A stretch of 64,000 nucleotides of DNA from Sphingopyxis sp. H053. GTDB lineage: Bacteria; Pseudomonadota; Alphaproteobacteria; Sphingomonadales; Sphingomonadaceae. The first letter of the stretch is position 1; each line of letters starts with the position of its first letter. Where the stretch lies: positions 372,001-436,000 of the forward strand of contig NZ_LNRU01000003.1 in the NCBI RefSeq assembly GCF_001468225.1. The letters are read 5' to 3'. The notes below the pieces were generated by a model that had not been told where the DNA came from, did not search any database, and saw nothing but the letters and a program-made list of their open reading frames with translations. Shown piece by piece: positions 49,472 to 62,795 of this stretch. The position numbers were made by a program, and so were the translations under genes.

Positions 49472-49568
49472 CATCTGTCCCTTCATTGGGCCGACACGCC
49501 CTTGCAGTTTGTGGCTCGCGGGTTATCGCAGCGGGCGAACAATGCAAACCCGAATGGGAGAGTCGTCC

Positions 49569-51533
<1,965 letters not shown>

Positions 51534-51546
51534 CCTCAATCGGGAT

Positions 51547-51607
51547 CCCGGACTTGATCCGGGATCCATTGCGACGGCGCGTCCTTGGACCCCGGATCAA
51601 GTCCGGG
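51547..51607. repeat. Sphingomonad-type palindromic repeat, copy 1
   Basis: CCCGGACTTGATCCGGG (51547-51563) is mirrored exactly by CCCGGATCAAGTCCGGG (51591-51607), so the transcript would fold into a 17-bp stem. It separates acs from the convergent serine hydrolase gene. The same arms recur at 62730-62790. The element is probably a dispersed REP-like sequence and a 3' end/terminator. Confidence 0.88.
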
Positions 51608-51624
51608 GTGACGAGAAAGTCGGA

Positions 51625-52812
51625 CTATTTCGCCAGCGCCTCGCACAGGCGATCGGTCGCGAGCGCGATGCGCGATTCCGCCGTTTTGCGATTGGCCGCA
51701 CTATTCTCGACCCCGCGCGTTTCGGTGTTGAACGCCAGCAGGCTGCCGACGCGCTGGTCGGGACAGAGGCTCAGATAGGCGCGAAAGCCGTTCTGGTCGC
51801 CATTATGTCCGACGAACCGCACCCCCGCACCGCGGTCGATAAAGAAGGACAGCCCGCTCTGCGTCGTCTTCGTCATACGCCCCTGCGTGAAATCCTCGCC
51901 CGCCGCGATTTGCGGCGCCCACATTTCCTCGAGCGAAGACCGTTTCAGCACCAGATCATAGTCGACTTGGCGCGCCGGATCGCCGAGCAGGAACGCCGCA
52001 TATTTCGCCATGTCGGGCATCGGCGCATTGAGCCCGCCATTCGACACCGTCACCCCGGTATCGACATCGAACGGCGCGGCGACGCGCCGGCCGTCGCGAA
52101 TATAGTAACTGTGCGACCGGTGCGGCAGCAGATGCGGCGGGGTGCGATCGAAATAACTGGCATGCATGCCCAGCGGCTTCAGGATATATTTGTCGACATA
52201 GACTTCATAATCCTCGCCCGACAGCCGCTCGATGACCTGACCCAGATAGACGATGCCCGGATTGGAGTAGCCGAAGCGCGTGCCGGGTTTGAACTCGACC
52301 TGCGTATACGGCAGCATCGCCACGAGCTGCGCCCAGCCCTTCGGCTCGAACGGCTGCCAGTCATGATCGCGCCACGGCCAGGTGCCGCTGCGAAAGCCCG
52401 CGCTGTGGCTCATCAGCTGGCGCAGCGTGATCGCGCCCGTGTCGCCATAGGGATTGTGGACGGCCGCCAGTTCGGGCACATAGCGGGTGATCGGATCGTC
52501 GAGCGACAGCAGCCCACGATCGCGCAATTGCATGATCGCGATCCCGGTCATCGTCTTGGTGATCGATGCCCAATGATAGATGGTGTCGGCATCGACGGGG
52601 ACATGCGCGTCGGCATCCTGCTCGCCCAGATGGTCGGCAACGACGGTCCGGCCGTCACGTACAACGTAGAAACTGCTTCCCGCGATCTTCGCCCGGCCGG
52701 CTTCGCTGCGGTGCAGCTCGCTAAAATCGCCAAGCGCCGCGTCGAAGCGCGACTCTTCGGCCGCCGCCGGATTGGCTATCAGAACAAGTGCGGCAGCAAT
52801 CCAGCGCGACAT
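51625..52812 (-). CDS. Serine hydrolase, class C beta-lactamase/penicillin-binding fold
   Basis: This 395-residue exported protein has a signal peptide (ending PAAAEE) and the SxxK motif SITK (Ser83, Lys86) in YHWASITKTMTGIA. The YxN motif is in RFGYSNPGIVYLG and the third motif is GHNGD, replacing the KTG of true beta-lactamases. DDPITRYVPEL and LRQLMSHSAGF are typical of the S12 esterase/peptidase family. It is more likely an esterase or D-amino-acid peptidase than a resistance enzyme. It lies 48 bases downstream of the Anbu gene in the same direction and may ride on its transcript. Confidence 0.87.
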   Translation of the reverse strand: MSRWIAAALVLIANPAAAEESRFDAALGDFSELHRSEAGRAKIAGSSFYVVRDGRTVVADHLGEQDADAHVPVDADTIYHWASITKTMTGIAIMQLRDRGLLSLDDPITRYVPELAAVHNPYGDTGAITLRQLMSHSAGFRSGTWPWRDHDWQPFEPKGWAQLVAMLPYTQVEFKPGTRFGYSNPGIVYLGQVIERLSGEDYEVYVDKYILKPLGMHASYFDRTPPHLLPHRSHSYYIRDGRRVAAPFDVDTGVTVSNGGLNAPMPDMAKYAAFLLGDPARQVDYDLVLKRSSLEEMWAPQIAAGEDFTQGRMTKTTQSGLSFFIDRGAGVRFVGHNGDQNGFRAYLSLCPDQRVGSLLAFNTETRGVENSAANRKTAESRIALATDRLCEALAK

Positions 52813-52860: not shown

Positions 52861-53592
52861 TCAGAAATGGAAGTCGGGAAGCTCCGCGAGCGCGATGCCC
52901 AATGCCTCGGCCCAGCCGTCGGCGACGCTTTCGAAATAGGGGTCGTTGCGCTCGAACCGCCGTTCGCGCACCGTGGCAAAATCGTCGCGCTCATGGACGC
53001 GAAGGTCAATCGGCAGGTCGACGCCGGCATTGGCGCGGATCGTCGAATCGAACGAGACGCAAAGCAGCTTCACCGAATCCTCGAACGACATCGCCGGGTC
53101 GTACGAGCGCACGATGATCGGCCGCCCATATTTGGTCTCGCCGATCTGGAAGAACGGATTATCCTCGCCCGCCTCGATGAAATTGCCTTCGGGATAGATG
53201 AGGAAAAGCCGCGGTTCGGACCCCTTGATCTGCCCGCCGACGATCAGCGAGGCGCGGAAGAGCGATTCCGCCGCGGGCCCTTCGTCGCTGTGGCGCATCA
53301 CGATGTTGCGCAGCGTCTCGCCGACGATCGTCGCGACCGCGAACATCGACGGCGCGGCGAGGATCGAAGGTTGGCGTTCCTCGGGCGCCTTGGTGCGCTC
53401 GTCGAGCAGGCTCACCACGGCCTGCGTCGTCGCGAGGTTGCCCGCCGACATCAATGTGATCACGCGCTCGCCGGGCACGTGCCAGCTGCGCATCTTGCGG
53501 ACCTGCGAAATGTCGTCGACACCCGCGTTGGTGCGGGTGTCCGACATGAACACCAGTCCCTTGTTCAAACGCATGCCAACGCAATAAGTCAT
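52861..53592 (-). CDS. anbu: Anbu proteasome-like peptidase
   Basis: This 243-residue protein belongs to the Anbu (ancestral beta subunit) group of N-terminal-nucleophile hydrolases. MTYCVGMRLNKGLVFMSDTR gives Thr2 as N-terminal nucleophile after Met removal and the Asp in SDTRTNAG. A Lys follows in ISQVRKMRSWHV, the proteasome-type triad. ITLMSAGNLATTQAVVSLL and FLIYPEGNFIEAGEDNPFFQIGE are Anbu-specific. Anbu proteins form open helical ring assemblies in structural work; substrates remain unknown. The ATG at 53592 lies 46 bases after the transglutaminase gene. It is the last member of the conserved four-gene cluster. Confidence 0.92.
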   Translation of the reverse strand: MTYCVGMRLNKGLVFMSDTRTNAGVDDISQVRKMRSWHVPGERVITLMSAGNLATTQAVVSLLDERTKAPEERQPSILAAPSMFAVATIVGETLRNIVMRHSDEGPAAESLFRASLIVGGQIKGSEPRLFLIYPEGNFIEAGEDNPFFQIGETKYGRPIIVRSYDPAMSFEDSVKLLCVSFDSTIRANAGVDLPIDLRVHERDDFATVRERRFERNDPYFESVADGWAEALGIALAELPDFHF

Positions 53593-53638
53593 CGAATCCC
53601 GTTTTCCCCGCCCGGAAAGTCCTGATCGTCCGGCCCGC

Positions 53639-54442
53639 TTATTGCTGGACCTGCAATTGAACAACCAGATTTTCCTGCGCCGCACCATAGCGCATGCCGC
53701 GAACCGGGGCAGCGTCGCGGTAATCGAGCCCCGTCGCGACGCGAATATAGCGCTGGTCGGGCGAATGGCCGTTGCTGACGTCGAAGCCGATCCATCCGAT
53801 ATGCTCGAAATGCGCCTCGGCCCATGCGTGCGTCGCATCCTGATGCGTGCGGTCGTTCATCATCAGATAGCCCGACACGTAACGCGCCGGATGGCCAAGG
53901 TGGCGCATCGCGGCGATGAAGATATGCGCATGGTCCTGGCACACCCCGCCCTCGCTGCCGAGCGCCTGTTCGGCGGTCGTCTCGGCATCGGTAAAGCCGA
54001 TCCGGTACGCCAGCCGGTCGATGATCAGCGCCGACAGCGCATGCGCGCGCTCGATATCATTGCTGTAGTCGCGGCCGAGCTGTGCGGTCAGCGCGCGGAC
54101 GTGCCGCCCCGCGCGCGTCAGCGGCGTGGGTCGCAGAAAGGTCCACAGCGGCATCGCGCCGCGATGCTGCCCGATCACGCCGTCCCAGGTTTCCAGCTCG
54201 ACCTCGCCATGACAGCGGATGACCATCTCGCTCGCCCCGCCCTGCACCGCAATCAGGTTGACGCCGTTGCCGTGGTGGTCGGTGTAGTGCAGTTGCTGCG
54301 CGCCGCCCTCGACCTCGATCGTCCAGCCATGGACACGCTGCTGCCCCGGCCGGTCCTTCGGCGTGAGTTTCAGCTGCTGCAGTGCATAGCTGACCGGCGC
54401 ATCATATTGATAACGGGTGGTATGTTCGACGCGCAGTTTCAT
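53639..54442 (-). CDS. Transglutaminase-like cysteine peptidase of the Anbu cluster
   Basis: This 267-residue protein has the bacterial transglutaminase N-terminal beta domain (MKLRVEHTTRYQYDAPVSYALQ-type start, KLTPKDRPGQ). A papain-like core follows with catalytic Cys in GSEGGVCQDHAHIFIAAMRHLG, His in DATHAWAEAHF and Asp in WIGFDVSNGHSPD. No signal peptide, so it is cytoplasmic. In this conserved context it is thought to act on a peptide or amide bond made by the ATP-grasp partner. It overlaps the alpha-E gene by four bases. Confidence 0.92.
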   Translation of the reverse strand: MKLRVEHTTRYQYDAPVSYALQQLKLTPKDRPGQQRVHGWTIEVEGGAQQLHYTDHHGNGVNLIAVQGGASEMVIRCHGEVELETWDGVIGQHRGAMPLWTFLRPTPLTRAGRHVRALTAQLGRDYSNDIERAHALSALIIDRLAYRIGFTDAETTAEQALGSEGGVCQDHAHIFIAAMRHLGHPARYVSGYLMMNDRTHQDATHAWAEAHFEHIGWIGFDVSNGHSPDQRYIRVATGLDYRDAAPVRGMRYGAAQENLVVQLQVQQ

Positions 54443-55380
54443 TCCACAAACCTGTAATCGCGCTCGACCTGCCGGGCGAGGGCGGCGGTGTCGCGAAGAA
54501 AGCTGGTCACATATTGGTGCAGGCCGCCGTCGAAGATCGACTGGATCGGCCCGGCGAGCTTCTCATGGCTCAGCGCATGCGCCAGCCGCCAGGCCTCGGT
54601 CTCCTCGCCATAATGCCGCTGCAGCTGCGCCAGATGATCCTCCATCCGCTCGCAGCAGAAAGCGAGGCTGCGCGGCATCTGGCGATAGAGGATCAGGAAT
54701 TCGGCGATCTTGAGCGCGCTGATCTCGGCCCCGTAAAGCCAGCGATAGGCGCGGTGCGCCGACACCGACCGCAAAATCGTTTCCCACTGCACATTGTCGA
54801 TCGACGTGCCGATATGCGCGACCGAGGGCAGCAGCAGATAATATTTGACGTCGAGGATGCGCGCGGTGTTGTCGGCGCGCTCCAGAAACGTACCGAGCAG
54901 CGCAAAATGATAGCCGTCGTTGCGCAGCATCGTGCCGTTCAATGCCCCGCGGACATGCGCGCTCTGCTGGCGGATCGTCGTCAGCACGTCGGGCAGATCG
55001 TCCTCGCGCACCGGCCGCTTCAGCAACGCGACGAGTGTCATCCAGCTCGTATTGACCGCCTCCCACGTCTCGCGGGTCAGCGCGGTGCGCGCGGTGCGGG
55101 CATTGTCGCGCGCGAGCTTGATCACCGAAAGGATGCTCGACGGATTGGCGGGATCGCGAAGCAGGAAGTCGATCACGCGCGCCGAGCTGTAATCGCCGTG
55201 CGCCGCCTTGAATGCCTGATTGACCCCCGCGGTCACCAGCACCGACTTCCATTCGGCCGCCGCCGTGCTCGACCGCGTCAGCGCGATGCGAAACCCCGCG
55301 TCGATCAGGCGCGCATTATTCTCGCTACGCTCGAGGTAACGCGCCATCCAGAAGAGCGAGCCTGCGGTCTTGCCCAGCAT
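54439..55380 (-). CDS. Alpha-E domain protein (COG2307 type)
   Basis: This 313-residue all-helical protein has the alpha-E family start LGKTAGSLFWMARYLERSENNARLID. RETWEAVNTSW, LGTFLERADNTARILDVKYYLLLPS and FCCERMEDHLAQLQR also match. The two RxENxAR/RxDNxAR repeats are the family hallmark and suggest an internal duplication. Biochemical function is unknown; it always travels with a circularly permuted ATP-grasp protein and may be its partner subunit. The start overlaps the ATP-grasp stop by one base (TGATG). Confidence 0.92.
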   Translation of the reverse strand: MLGKTAGSLFWMARYLERSENNARLIDAGFRIALTRSSTAAAEWKSVLVTAGVNQAFKAAHGDYSSARVIDFLLRDPANPSSILSVIKLARDNARTARTALTRETWEAVNTSWMTLVALLKRPVREDDLPDVLTTIRQQSAHVRGALNGTMLRNDGYHFALLGTFLERADNTARILDVKYYLLLPSVAHIGTSIDNVQWETILRSVSAHRAYRWLYGAEISALKIAEFLILYRQMPRSLAFCCERMEDHLAQLQRHYGEETEAWRLAHALSHEKLAGPIQSIFDGGLHQYVTSFLRDTAALARQVERDYRFVE

Positions 55381-56819
55381 CAGTCTTCCAATACCCAGGT
55401 GTCTTTGGTGCCGCCGCCCTGGCTCGAATTCACCACCAGCGATCCCTTGGTCATCGCGACGCGCGTCAACCCACCCGGCGTGATCGTGACCCCCTGCGGC
55501 GACATCAGCACAAAGGGGCGCAGGTCGACGTGGCGCGGCGCGAGGCCCTTCTTCGTAAAGATCGGCACGGTCGATAGCGACAGCGTCGGCTGCGCGATAT
55601 AATTGCCGGGGTTCGCCTCCAGCTTGGCACGGAAGGCCGCGAGCTCCTTCTTGCTCGCGGCGGGGCCGACGAGCATCCCGTAACCACCCGACCCGTGGAC
55701 TTCCTTGACGACGAGTTCGGGCAGCCGGTCGAGCACTTCGCGCAAATGCTCGGGGTCCGAACAGCGCCACGTCGGCACATTGGGAAGCAGCGCCTTTTCG
55801 CCCGTATAGAATTCGATGATGTCGGGCATATAGCTGTAGAGCGCCTTGTCGTCGGCGATGCCGGTGCCGGGCGCGTTGGCGATGGTGATGCCGCCCGCGC
55901 GATACACGTCCCATATCCCCGGCACGCCGAGCATCGAATCGGGGCGGAAATTCAGCGGATCGAGGAAATCATCGTCGACGCGGCGATAGACGACATCGAT
56001 CGCCTTATAGCCCTGCGTCGTGCGCATCGCGACGCGCCCGTCGATAACGCGCAGGTCATGCCCCTCCACCAGTTCGGCGCCCATATGGTCGGCGAGGAAG
56101 CTGTGCTCATAATAAGCGCTGTTGTGGATACCGGGGGTCAGCACCGCGACGGTCGGGGTGCCGCCGCACGCGGGCGGCGCGCAGGCGGCGAGCGATTTCA
56201 GCAGGTTGATCGGATAGTCGCTGACCTCGCGCACCGGCACTTTCGCGAACAGCTCGGGAAACATCTGGAGCATCGTTTCGCGGTTTTCGAGCATGTAGGA
56301 CACGCCCGACGGGGTGCGCGCATTATCCTCGAGCACATAGAATTCATCGGCGCCGGTGCGCACGATGTCGGTGCCGCTGATGTGCGTATAGATGCCGCCC
56401 GGCGGGTCGAGCCCCATCATCATCGGCAGGAACGCCTCGTTCCCCGCGATCAGGTCGGTCGGCACGCGCCCGGCGCGCAAAATCTCCTGCCGGTGATAAA
56501 TGTCGTGGAGAAAGGCGTTGAGTGCGCGCACGCGCTGTTCGATGCCGCGCGACAGGCGGCGCCATTCGCTCGCCGAGATGATGCGCGGCACGACGTCGAA
56601 GGGGATCAGCCGCTCGTCGCCGTCGGCGGCGCCATAGACGTTGAAGGTGATCCCGGTGGTACGGAACAGCGCCTCGGCCTGCTGCGCCTTGCGCTGGATG
56701 CGCGTCGCATCCTCGGCCTCGAACCACCCGCAATATTCGCGATAGGGCGACCGGGTTCCGCCCTCCTGGCTCGTCATTTCGTCGAAAAATGAAATGCGCC
56801 TGCCCTTTCCACGCAACAT
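55380..56819 (-). CDS. Circularly permuted type 2 ATP-grasp protein
   Basis: This roughly 479-residue protein is of the COG2308 type: ISFFDEMTSQEGGTRSPYREYCGWFE, NAFLHDIYHRQEILRAGRVP, TDIVRTGADEFYVLEDNARTPSGVSYMLENR, and TPGIHNSAYYEHSFLA. Near the C-terminus are VVKEVHGSGGYGMLVGP (nucleotide-binding loop) and APRHVDLRPFVL. ATP-grasp enzymes ligate a carboxylate to an amine through acyl phosphate, so peptide or amide bond formation is inferred. I used the ATG at 56819 because the FFDEM block just after it is conserved in the family; ATG 56777 would cut it. It is the first gene of the four-gene cluster. Confidence 0.9.
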   Translation of the reverse strand: MLRGKGRRISFFDEMTSQEGGTRSPYREYCGWFEAEDATRIQRKAQQAEALFRTTGITFNVYGAADGDERLIPFDVVPRIISASEWRRLSRGIEQRVRALNAFLHDIYHRQEILRAGRVPTDLIAGNEAFLPMMMGLDPPGGIYTHISGTDIVRTGADEFYVLEDNARTPSGVSYMLENRETMLQMFPELFAKVPVREVSDYPINLLKSLAACAPPACGGTPTVAVLTPGIHNSAYYEHSFLADHMGAELVEGHDLRVIDGRVAMRTTQGYKAIDVVYRRVDDDFLDPLNFRPDSMLGVPGIWDVYRAGGITIANAPGTGIADDKALYSYMPDIIEFYTGEKALLPNVPTWRCSDPEHLREVLDRLPELVVKEVHGSGGYGMLVGPAASKKELAAFRAKLEANPGNYIAQPTLSLSTVPIFTKKGLAPRHVDLRPFVLMSPQGVTITPGGLTRVAMTKGSLVVNSSQGGGTKDTWVLED

Positions 56820-57013
56820 GCCAGCATCCGCCGCGCGAGAGCGAGCGGCGCACTCATGTTCCTGCTGCTGCGCTACCTGACGGCTACGTGGCCACCAGGC
56901 TTGTGAGGCCAATGCTAATCGCGCCCGCGGGCCTTGGCAAGCGGGCGCGTAAGCCGTGGTGTTACCGTAACATCAAACACTTGCCGCGCGCCCGAAGGCG
57001 TGCGGCGAGCGCG

Positions 57014-59749
57014 TCAAATCGCGCCGTGGCAGTGCTTATACTTGCGGCCCGAACCGCACGGGCACGGCGCGTTGCGGCTGATGTCGAGCGTCGCATAGGG
57101 ATTGTCTCCCTCGGGCATGTCCGGACGCGGGATCTGCATCGGCGGCAGCGTGTTTGCGATCACGCCCAACTGTCCACCGTCGAGATCGGCGCTGTTGTCC
57201 TCGCCCGTGAAGGGGTCGATGTGTGTGGTCAGGAAATCGGGCAGGTCGGGCAGCGGCATCGGCTCGGGCTCTTCGAAGCGCAGGTCGATCCGCGCAACGG
57301 TGCGCGTCACATCCTCGCGGATATTCTGCAGCATGCGTTCGAACAGCGCGAAGGCTTCCTGCTTATATTCGTTGATCGGCTGCTTCTGCGCATAGGCGCG
57401 CAGGAACACGACCTGACGCAGCGCGTCGAGCGTCGACAAATGCTCTTTCCAATGATGGTCGAGCGTCTGGAGCAGCACCGATTTCTCGATCCCCTTCCAC
57501 GTTTCCTGATCGACGAGCGCAGCCTTTTCGGCGGCGACCGCGTCGGCGGCGGCCTGGATGCGCTCTTCGAACATTTCGGCGTCGACCGCGTCTTCCTGCA
57601 TCCACGCATCGATCGGCGGCGAAAGGTCGAGGATATTCTCTACCCGCTCCTTCATCTGTTCGACGTTCCACTGTTCGGGATAGCTGCCGGGGGGGCACGC
57701 ATCGGCAACGATCGAATTGACCGTTTCGGCGCGCATCGCGGTCATCACCTCGTCGACGGTCTCGCTGTCGATGATCTCGCCGCGCTGTTCATAGATGACC
57801 TTGCGCTGGTCGTTCATGACGTTGTCATATTCGACGACCTGCTTGCGGATGTCGTAGTTGCGCGCCTCGACCTTCTTCTGCGCGGTCTCGATCGCCTTCG
57901 ACAGCCATTTCGACCCGATCGCCTCGCCGTCCTCCAGATTTTTGTTCATCATCTTGGAAAAGAGCGTGTCGGGGCCGAAGATGCGCAGCAGGTCATCGTC
58001 GAGGCAGAGGTAGAATTTCGACAGGCCGGGGTCGCCCTGGCGCCCCGAACGGCCGCGCAGCTGGTTGTCGATGCGGCGGCTTTCGTGACGCTCGGTCGCG
58101 AGCACGAACAGCCCGCCCGCGGCGAGCACCGCCTCACGCTCGGCGGCGACCTCTTCGTGGATGCGCGCGATCGCGGCGTCGCGCTCGGCGCCTTCGGGCA
58201 GGTCCTTCAATTCGTCGCCGATGCGGAATTCTTCGTTGCCGCCGAGTTTGATGTCGGTGCCGCGGCCCGCCATGTTCGTCGCGATCGTGACCGCACCGGT
58301 GCGGCCCGCCTGCGCGACGATATGCGCTTCGCTTTCGTGGAAACGCGCGTTGAGCACGCTATGCGGCACGCCGTCCTTTTCAAGGAAGGACGACAGCAGC
58401 TCGGACTTTTCGATCGACACGGTGCCGACGAGCACCGGCTGGCCGCGCTCGTTCGCCTCGCGGATCGTCTTGGCGATCGCGCCGAACTTGTCGGTGATAT
58501 TCTTGTAGAATTCATCCTCGTCGTCGACGCGCGCGATCGGACGGTTGGTCGGGATGTTGACGACATTCATCTTGTAAATGTCGAAGAATTCGGCCGCTTC
58601 GGTCGCCGCGGTGCCGGTCATGCCCGAAAGCTTGGGGTACATACGGAAATAATTCTGGAAGGTGATCGACGCGAGCGTCTGGTTCTCGGGCTCGATCTGC
58701 ACGCCTTCTTTCGCCTCGACCGCCTGATGCAGGCCGTCGGACCAGCGCCGCCCGTCCATCATGCGGCCGGTGAATTCGTCGATGATCACGACCTTGCCGT
58801 CCTTGACGATATAGTCGGTGTCGATCCGGAACATCTGGATCGCCTTCAACGCCTGATTGACGTGATGCACGACCTGCGTGTTTTCGATGTCGTAGAGATT
58901 GTTGCCCTGGAGCAGGCCGGCGGCTTCGAGCAGGCGCTCGACATGCTCGGTGCCGTCCTCGGTCAGGTTGATCGACTTGGACTTTTCGTCCTTTTCATAA
59001 TCATCATCGGTCAGGTTGAGGACGACTTCGTTGACGCGGATATAAAGCTCGGACTTGTCGTCGGTCGGACCCGAGATGATCAGCGGGGTGCGCGCTTCGT
59101 CGATCAGGATCGAATCGACCTCGTCGACGATGCCGAAGTTGAAGGTGCGGTGGACCATCTGCTGGCGGTCGAACTTCATATTGTCGCGGAGGTAATCGAA
59201 CCCCAGCTCGTTGTTCGTCGCATAGGTGATGTCGCTGTTATAGGCGTCGCGGCGCTGCGTCTCGTTGAGGTTCGGGACGATGATCCCGGTCGTCAGGCCC
59301 AGGAAGCCATAGACGGTGCCCATCCATTCGGCGTCGCGCGTCGCGAGATAGTCGTTGACGGTGACGACATGGACGCCCTTGCCTTCGAGCGCGTTGAGGT
59401 AGCAGGGCAAAGTCGCCATCAGCGTCTTACCTTCGCCCGTCGCCATTTCGGCGATCTCGCCGCGGTGGAGGACGACGCCGCCGACCATCTGCACGTCGAA
59501 ATGGCGCATGCCGAGCGTGCGGACCGCGGCCTCGCGCACCGTCGCAAAGGCTTCGGGCAGGATGTCGTCGAGCGTCTCGCCGGCTGCGAGCCGATCGCGG
59601 AACGCCTGCGTCTGCGCCTGCAGCCCGGCATCGTCGAGCGCCTGCATCGCGGGCTCGAACGCGTTGATCTTGTCGACGATCTTGCGGATCGAGGCGACAT
59701 AACGGTCGTTGGACGAGCCGAACAGGCTCTTGGCAAGGCCAGAAAACAT
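57014..59749 (-). CDS. secA: Preprotein translocase ATPase SecA
   Basis: This 911-residue motor drives Sec-dependent export. Landmarks in order are [22 protein letters not shown] (Walker A), [38 protein letters not shown] (DEAD-type Walker B), the preprotein cross-linking domain, and [24 protein letters not shown] and [23 protein letters not shown] follow, with a C-terminal zinc site [14 protein letters not shown] that contacts SecB. The ATG at 59749 (AAGGG upstream) matches the family N-terminus [15 protein letters not shown]. The 56820-57013 gap on the 3' side shows nothing recognisable. Confidence 0.97.
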
Positions 59750-59804
59750 GGAATTTCCCTTGGGATTAGAATGAATTGGCGGCGCTTCGACCGCGCGAAC
59801 ATAT

Positions 59805-59826
59805 GAAAAAGGCCCCTTTGCGGGGC
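59805..59826 (-). terminator. Rho-independent terminator upstream of secA
   Basis: On the minus strand GCCCC-GCAAA-GGGGC is followed by CTTTTT. It lies between the small exported-protein gene at 59858 and secA, so secA should have its own promoter in the 59750-59805 gap. Confidence 0.85.
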
Positions 59827-59857
59827 GGCGCCTCAAGAAAGGCGCGAAAAAGCCGCT

Positions 59858-62724: not shown

Positions 62725-62795
62725 GTCATCCCGGACTTGATCCGGGATCCACGACGATGGTGCGGCCATGGATCCCGGATCAAGTCCGGGATGAC
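62725..62795. repeat. Sphingomonad-type palindromic repeat, copy 2
   Basis: A perfect 27-bp inverted repeat (62725-62751 against 62769-62795, 17-base loop) begins GTCATCCCGGACTTGATCC. It contains the same 17-base arm as the 51547-51607 copy. It lies between the SDR and the convergent GIN-domain gene and probably ends both transcripts. Confidence 0.9.

Follow-up and report, generated by a model that had tools for sequence, protein, structure and literature searches.

The Anbu cluster of the window

The stretch of DNA analyzed here (the window) comprises 64,000 nucleotides of Sphingopyxis sp. H053 (contig NZ_LNRU01000003.1, positions 372,001 to 436,000) and contains, at 52861-56819 of the minus strand, a four-gene Anbu-1 cluster in the order ATP-grasp, alpha-E, transglutaminase-like and anbu. 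The cluster is of a known kind, and ordinary for its kind. The new point is that its first gene appears to start at AUU or AUC, and that this is conserved through the genus.

The first gene (55380-56795, the frame being also open from an ATG at 56819) encodes a circularly permuted ATP-grasp ligase, with matches to PF14403 (546.9 bits against a cut-off of 32; E 3e-164) and PF04174 (483.4 bits against 23.1; E 4e-145), and with residues 11-479 matching the solved structure 3n6x (E 9e-193). The second gene (54439-55380), which overlaps the first by 1 base, encodes an all-helical alpha-E protein (PF04168, 302.7 bits against a cut-off of 20.8; E 5e-90). They are presumably of the COG2308 and COG2307 types, respectively. 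The third gene (53639-54442) overlaps the second by 4 bases and encodes a transglutaminase-like cysteine amidase or protease with the triad C168-H205-D221 (PF01841, E 3e-21; PF08379, E 3e-20). After a gap of 46 bases comes anbu (52861-53592; PF00227, E 1e-7), the product of which is of the Anbu-1 type, with Thr2 as the nucleophile (Thr1 once the Met is removed), D18 and K33. This protein matched five distinct sequences of solved structures, labelled Anbu, designed Anbu or peptidase, with E values from 2e-82 to 1e-57, and its nearest named relatives are from Sphingopyxis (95% and 90%). The genome of the window gave one alpha-E match and one permuted ATP-grasp match. A search of NCBIfam with these four proteins and with the S12 serine hydrolase encoded 48 bases beyond anbu gave, among the matches listed, none at the cut-off of its model (for the S12 protein, the list comprised the best 25 of 47 matches).

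An earlier note, made from the sequence of the window, had described four genes here, with these overlaps and gap, as a complete Anbu cluster. The positions, on the minus strand, were borne out, as were, by Pfam and solved structures, the four protein identities and the completeness of the cluster. The gene ends it gave also stand for the four genes, while the ATP-grasp gene most likely starts at the ATT at 56795 and not at the ATG at 56819.

Start codon of the ATP-grasp gene

The start was located by tracing upstream, in aligned congeners, the frame of the conserved FFDEM motif, and it was taken as the second codon before FFDEM (the third in L243). The first 52 orthologous clusters were read in this way, and then the other 20 of the 72; two of them (L308 and L318) were unreadable at the start, which left 70 readable clusters. 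In every one, including 52/52 of the first set, the codon at this position was ATT (67 clusters) or ATC (three clusters). In the window, the probable start codon is the ATT (AUU) at 56793-56795 of the minus strand, 8 bases behind a Shine-Dalgarno-like AAAGG (56804-56808, minus strand) that lies within the conserved block GCGTGGAAAGG. Either AAAGG or GAAGG precedes the codon in 70/70 clusters, with a spacing of 8 bases in 54, 9 in 13, 7 in two and 10 in one. The same reading, applied to the other genes as a control, gave ATG for alpha-E in 71/71 clusters, for anbu in 70/70 and for the transglutaminase gene in 69/71.

Translation could instead begin at the upstream ATG at 56819 (or at the TTG at 56816), in which case the protein would have a short N-terminal extension and the ATT would simply encode an isoleucine within it. 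Two facts weigh on this side and against initiation at ATT. The first is that an ATG, GTG or TTG is present in frame at codon -8 or -7 in 54/70 clusters (ATG at -8 in 41), including the window, where the frame is open from ATG 56819, so that for the window taken alone an upstream start could be envisaged; automated gene calling would put it there. The second is that ATT is also a plain isoleucine codon, and the variation between ATT and ATC would be synonymous.

The comparison of congeners argues for the ATT. The set of 16/70 clusters without a canonical codon at -8 or -7 (which includes L040 and excludes L255) arises mostly from a frame shift that leaves ATG or GTG out of frame; much of this shifted group has a GTG at codon -6, which sits inside the Shine-Dalgarno block. 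Three clusters (L257, L263 and L268) have no in-frame ATG, GTG or TTG at all from the in-frame stop down to the ATT; a fourth one (L250) has none inside the predicted transcript. As L263 and L268 show the same arrangement in two genomes, one of them assembled as a single contig, a sequencing error is unlikely. A conserved AUU or AUC behind a Shine-Dalgarno motif is found in 70/70 clusters, and a canonical codon is dispensable, in 16/70 at codons -8 and -7 and in three in the whole frame.

It is worth noting that the upstream bases are conserved as nucleotides rather than as codons. In 40 clusters with a spacing of 8 bases, the GCGTGGAAAGG block is invariant except for two columns at 39/40, with its third codon positions unvaried, and the upstream base that varies most (17/13/7/3) falls on a first codon position; in the same clusters, the FFDE codons vary at their third positions (31/9, 32/8, 35/5 and 22/17/1). 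The upstream block has the look of a ribosome-binding site with a start codon behind it, and not of a coding extension. Considering all these points, it is very probable that the ATP-grasp gene initiates at AUU/AUC in Sphingopyxis, and initiation at the upstream ATG or TTG is given only a small probability. No report of an AUU (ATT) start codon in Sphingopyxis or in Anbu genes was found in the open-licence literature.

Concerning the wider set of loci, a canonical candidate start was found in 159 of the 165 examined (24 were skipped), under a test laxer than the one used for the genus, any in-frame ATG being accepted. Among the six loci without such a candidate, L050, L099, L125 and L144 have a GTG with no listed Shine-Dalgarno motif, and L113, itself from Sphingopyxis, reads ATT. 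In L093, from another genus of the family (G262; 60% identity), an ATT stands 8 bases behind AAAGG, with no ATG, GTG or TTG in the open frame. This suggests a second candidate AUU start and that AUU may not be confined to one genus. In the sister loci L046, L114 and L121 there is a TTG two codons further in.

Predicted promoter and leader

A sigma70-like promoter is predicted at 56912-56940 of the minus strand, with TTGCCA as the -35 and TAGCAT as the -10 element, separated by 17 bases. The consensus scan is weak when taken alone (two found versus 1.1 expected), and conservation was considered with it. TAGCAT occurs in 70/70 readable Sphingopyxis clusters, located 116-134 bases upstream of the ATT in 67 and 54-56 bases upstream in three, and the combination of TTGCC and TAGCAT occurs in 51/52 orthologous clusters of the first set, L266 being the exception.

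Between the promoter and the ATP-grasp start there is a leader (56830-56910), in which about 40 bases are conserved in 18 aligned congeners. In L250, L252 and L257, where TAGCAT is only 54-56 bases before the ATT, much of the leader must be absent. A small open reading frame encoded in the leader, considered by eye in the upstream alignment, was dropped, as no start or frame was kept.

A sigma54-type site, searched for with a strict pattern, was found in 0/54 regions upstream of the Sphingopyxis operon, including those of the divergent clusters L045 and L271, and the matches of a relaxed pattern in the window were at chance level. The sigma54 gene is present in 29/30 genomes of the genus.

Comparison with infC, sigR and cvfC1

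According to published work, IF3 represses starts other than ATG, GTG and TTG, and infC starts at ATT in E. coli and at ATC in Streptomyces (PMC5472188). The sigR gene of Streptomyces has an IF3-repressed GTC start, annotation having wrongly put it at a GTG within the ribosome-binding site of the gene (PMC5472188). The staphylococcal gene cvfC1, the first in its operon, has an AUU start conserved in staphylococci, and the same source gives AUA for infC (PMC13009471).

In Sphingopyxis, infC reads GGAG ... ATA in 30/30 loci (L272-L301, of which L296 is from the genome of the window), with a pattern in which AT was fixed and the third base was free; an earlier, different pattern recovered 29/30 loci. 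An in-frame ATG occurs four codons further on in most genomes and is not kept in several. The start of infC in the genus appears to be this ATA.

The ATP-grasp gene shares with infC, with its AUU, AUC or AUA starts, a conserved non-AUG codon of the form AUH behind a Shine-Dalgarno motif. It differs in that infC feeds back on itself, whereas the ATP-grasp codon would stand in an unrelated metabolic operon. With sigR and cvfC1 it has in common the position as first gene of a multi-gene unit with a rare start codon, and with sigR also that annotation is misled by a canonical codon close to the ribosome-binding site or within it. The starts of sigR and cvfC1 were shown by experiment, whereas that of the Sphingopyxis ATP-grasp gene is drawn from comparison. 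By analogy with these genes, control of the ATP-grasp gene by IF3 is somewhat favoured.

Catalytic residues, Anbu class and alpha-E fold

In the alignment of the loci, the Anbu residues T2 (240/241), D18 (241/241) and K33 (239/241) are conserved, and so are C168 (220/220), H205 (220/220) and D221 (219/220) of the transglutaminase. It had been stated that the catalytic residues of both proteins are intact in the window; the alignment agrees, with no loss of residues. The further statement of an active pathway says more than the evidence allows, as the intact Anbu of three species was inactive on three standard proteasome substrates according to the available passages of PMC6376114. In two loci, probably L108 and L109, the K33 column shows a Val; the Anbu of L108 and L109 is 28-30% identical and is aligned with a gap of two residues there. 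The Anbu of L108, L109 and L231, at about 28-31% identity, is a candidate Anbu-2, and MTYCLGIRV and LADGRLTSGM are common to L108 and L109.

The S1 pocket of the window Anbu (T21 V31 S49 L53 T56) is Anbu-1-like and contains no basic residue, unlike the pocket of Anbu-2. That of Pa-Anbu was reported as T20 F30 T48 L52 S55, with three of the five residues different from the window protein (PMC5666114). The likeness of the cluster to the Anbu-1 operon of Yersinia, Pseudomonas and others includes the same four genes in the same order and, in Anbu, the catalytic Thr, Asp and Lys and the type of S1 pocket. A difference may lie in the apparent AUU/AUC start of the first gene and in the conserved sigma70-like promoter of Sphingopyxis.

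In alpha-E, two ER motifs (E17 R18 and E167 R168) are conserved in at least 99% of the loci covering them (227 loci), and W11, R24 and R98 are also conserved. The AlphaFold2 model, obtained with 67 sequences, is confident and all-helical (pLDDT 90.7, pTM 0.89). A Foldseek search of the PDB with this model gave no match at E <= 0.001 (the best E was 0.17, and the TM-scores were below 0.3 in the best 50 rows), and the alpha-E sequence found no relative among solved structures beyond a chance-level match. A new fold is only suggested by the model, because helical folds are hard for such searches; alpha-E is a protein of confidently predicted helical fold with no clear solved relative.

Conservation of the four-gene unit

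In loose first-look searches, whose counts of absence are upper bounds, Anbu was present in 152/296 genomes of the order and in 102/299 of the phylum (in one of them, G504, as a fragment), and alpha-E in 156/299 genomes of the phylum; by co-occurrence, the 299 genomes are divided into 101 with both, one with Anbu only (G451), 55 with alpha-E only and 142 with neither. The gene order of the window is kept in 160 of 188 wider loci (151 + 8 + 1); among the 188 are L112 and L113, both from Sphingopyxis, as well as L044 and L045, which are divergent. In 15 of the 188, anbu has none of the three partners within 6 kb on the same strand (L109, one of these, is cut short upstream), and the remaining 13 have an incomplete or altered arrangement, some being cut. 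These patterns come from tblastn with the window proteins, which divergent partners may escape; the calling of open reading frames was greedy. In 15 genomes examined, mostly for an unlinked anbu, alpha-E was found somewhere in 12 and was absent from three (G135, G021 and G057). Solitary anbu genes with no partners nearby are those of L098 (G135, with an alpha-E match nowhere) and L100 (G272, where another cluster, L101, is complete).

Beyond the four genes, no gene family was found next to the cluster in over 25/188 loci, the families being unannotated and the counts being lower bounds due to a strict clustering, in which the four cluster genes themselves gather only 105-126 loci. One set of neighbours (cluster 4) consisted of antisense shadow frames, with a same-strand fraction of 0, and was set aside. 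Since no other family exceeds this number and the four-gene order is kept, the conserved unit is the four genes, and the S12 hydrolase is not part of it.

Within the genus, divergent clusters occur in G088 and G200 (L044 and L045; Anbu 47% in both) and in G331 (L271; 70%), which would fit a replacement of the cluster or a broad grouping of the genus. The alpha-E proteins of the genus form two classes of identity to that of the window (91-99% and 79-88%), which the ATP-grasp proteins follow roughly, and anbu, secA and acs less sharply. An exchange of alleles inside the cluster is a possible origin of these classes.

According to an idea set out in PMC6376114, ATP-grasp, alpha-E and the transglutaminase would modify proteins and Anbu would degrade the proteins so tagged. 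This idea agrees with Anbu being a proteasome homologue and with the reaction of Thr1 of P. aeruginosa Anbu with proteasome inhibitors (PMC5666114). Taken together, the available passages of PMC5666114 and PMC6376114 report no peptidase activity. Considering that no unfoldase or other family recurs beside the cluster above the mentioned number, that Anbu showed no activity on the standard substrates, and that, in the available passages of PMC6376114, no specific partner was obtained when proteins of the Yersinia operon were pulled down with Anbu, the tagging and degradation of proteins seems unlikely.

The S12 hydrolase beside anbu

The gene at 51625-52812 (minus strand) encodes an S12 serine hydrolase of beta-lactamase fold (PF00144, E 2e-65), for which the earlier note had proposed a role as extra member of the cluster. 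As to the genes that flank the whole, the one upstream at 57014-59836, on the minus strand, is presumably secA-like, and the one downstream at 49509-51533, on the other strand, we take to be an acetyl-CoA-synthetase-like gene (acs), both names being given from the look of the proteins.

In the genus, an S12 gene lies directly after anbu, on the same strand and within 120 bases, in 26/72 orthologous clusters (in L305 and L317 the sequence ends short of this place), and wherever it adjoins the cluster it is found behind anbu on that strand (26/26). Among 32 orthologous clusters that lack S12, acs comes directly next in 27, and in the other five no acs was found nearby. A close S12 copy exists anywhere in 32/80 genomes of the genus (G336 has a fragment only), some copies being away from the cluster (G316 and G342). 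In the 188 wider loci, no S12 orthologue was found on the same strand within 6 kb of the cluster (0/188); L110 has one S12 at 26% identity, 5.8 kb upstream. On trees of the 52 clusters, the presence of S12 changes five times (ATP-grasp, transglutaminase), six (alpha-E) or seven (anbu), and on 45-row trees of the flanking genes seven (secA) or nine times (acs), these counts not separating gain from loss. With this distribution, the proposal of an extra member fails: the survey of anbu neighbourhoods did not find S12 conserved beside it across lineages, and the S12 gene is a lineage-specific accessory neighbour.

A tie of S12 to one of the alpha-E/ATP-grasp identity classes was ruled out, as S12 is found beside the other class (L255, L259, L260, L263 and L268) and is absent beside the first-class clusters L239, L241 and L243. 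Apparent S12 starts at GTG (L038) and ATT (L318) were seen at an extrapolated position, the alignments beginning at residues 3 and 19, and provide no evidence for rare starts. A palindromic REP-like repeat, composed of CCCCGGACTTGATCCGGG and, at a distance of about 45 bases, its inverse, is present twice (0 expected by chance), once beyond the far end of the S12 gene, at 51546-51608, and once at 62729-62791. Similar palindromic repeats occur in the alignment upstream of the ATP-grasp promoter in some congeners. Rfam gave no known RNA element in the cluster, only two sub-threshold matches to microRNA families on the repeat, at 51540-51615, which were taken as chance.

The cluster could also be read as making a small peptide-like natural product, with the S12 hydrolase as an optional tailoring or release enzyme. 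An ATP-grasp ligase does occur here together with hydrolases, S12 enzymes can act on peptides (D-peptidases and ClbP are among the relatives), and the S12 gene, where present, is always close behind anbu. On the other hand, the S12 gene comes and goes among clusters, its product has a signal-peptide-like N-terminus (by eye), so that it would act outside the cytoplasm, and the wider loci lack a further recurrent family, at the level already given. A natural-product pathway is thus regarded as quite improbable.

Discussion

The earlier note regarded the product and substrate of the cluster as undefined. This is consistent with the available passages of PMC5666114, PMC6376114 and PMC8665760, the last of which states that Anbu has no known function, and no definition of either was found in the open-licence literature. 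Concerning the chemistry, the ATP-grasp protein of the Yersinia Anbu operon releases phosphate from ATP (PMC6376114). Concerning the physiology, an up-regulation of Anbu under nitrogen limitation is cited by PMC5666114 and PMC6376114, and in P. putida growing on nitrate versus ammonium, PP_2685 (bacterial proteasome, beta subunit) and PP_2688 (circularly permuted ATP-grasp type 2) increase by log2 4.44 and 3.99, respectively (PMC8050072). In B. cenocepacia, the cluster I35_5080-83 resembles the present one in its ATP-grasp (DUF404/407), alpha-E (DUF403) and transglutaminase proteins; it differs in having a second, large transglutaminase-domain protein, in its dependence on NtrC and sigma54 and in that no Anbu is named in the available passages (PMC5491218).

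The best explanation, which as a whole we hold to be probable, is that of an Anbu-1 amide-bond operon the AUU-started first gene of which is held low through IF3. The four products would form an intracellular amide-bond module, in which ATP-grasp and alpha-E would activate a carboxylate with ATP and link it to an amine; hydrolysis or exchange of the amide bonds of the product would fall to the transglutaminase-like cysteine enzyme and to the N-terminal-nucleophile ring of Anbu. Judging from the expression data of relatives, the module would most likely serve nitrogen-limited growth. The conserved sigma70-like promoter would transcribe the Sphingopyxis operon, and its first gene would start at AUU (AUC in three genomes), a codon of the kind repressed by IF3. 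The output of the first enzyme would be kept low in this way and tied to the ribosome and IF3 pool, and perhaps that of the next genes too, by way of the gene overlaps. In this explanation we infer initiation at AUU/AUC in the cell, the control by IF3, the coupling, the nitrogen role, the chemistry and the substrate.

Several observations count against parts of this explanation. No sigma54 site was found before the operon although sigma54 is present, and the link to nitrogen is carried over from relatives. In some congeners, alpha-E starts at least 100 bases after the ATP-grasp gene. Glutamine, glutamate and Anbu gave no stimulation of the phosphate release by the Yersinia ATP-grasp protein, in the available passages of PMC6376114, to which the unproductive pull-down described above is to be added. 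Finally, alpha-E occurs without Anbu in 55/299 genomes, and Anbu without alpha-E in G451, G135, G021 and G057. Translational coupling through the gene overlaps is uncertain, because the genes are not closely spaced in every congener. For an amide module serving nitrogen limitation, arguments for and against are about evenly balanced. The same even judgement applies to the proposal that the whole Sphingopyxis Anbu operon may be under translational control through the AUU/AUC of its first gene, IF3 repressing it in normal growth and the operon opening when IF3 becomes limiting versus 30S.

The papers found on Anbu operons cover structures, a phosphate-releasing ATP-grasp protein and expression on poor nitrogen sources. 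The conserved AUU offers a direct handle: its conversion to AUG, or the use of IF3 fidelity mutants, should raise the expression of the pathway and make its product easier to find. If the proposed start is true, Alphaproteobacteria would offer here a genus-wide case, other than infC, of initiation at AUU/AUC, a kind of start that gene calling based on ATG, GTG and TTG misplaces. If the proposed control by IF3 is true as well, a proteasome-like, amide-bond pathway would be wired to the translation machinery itself.

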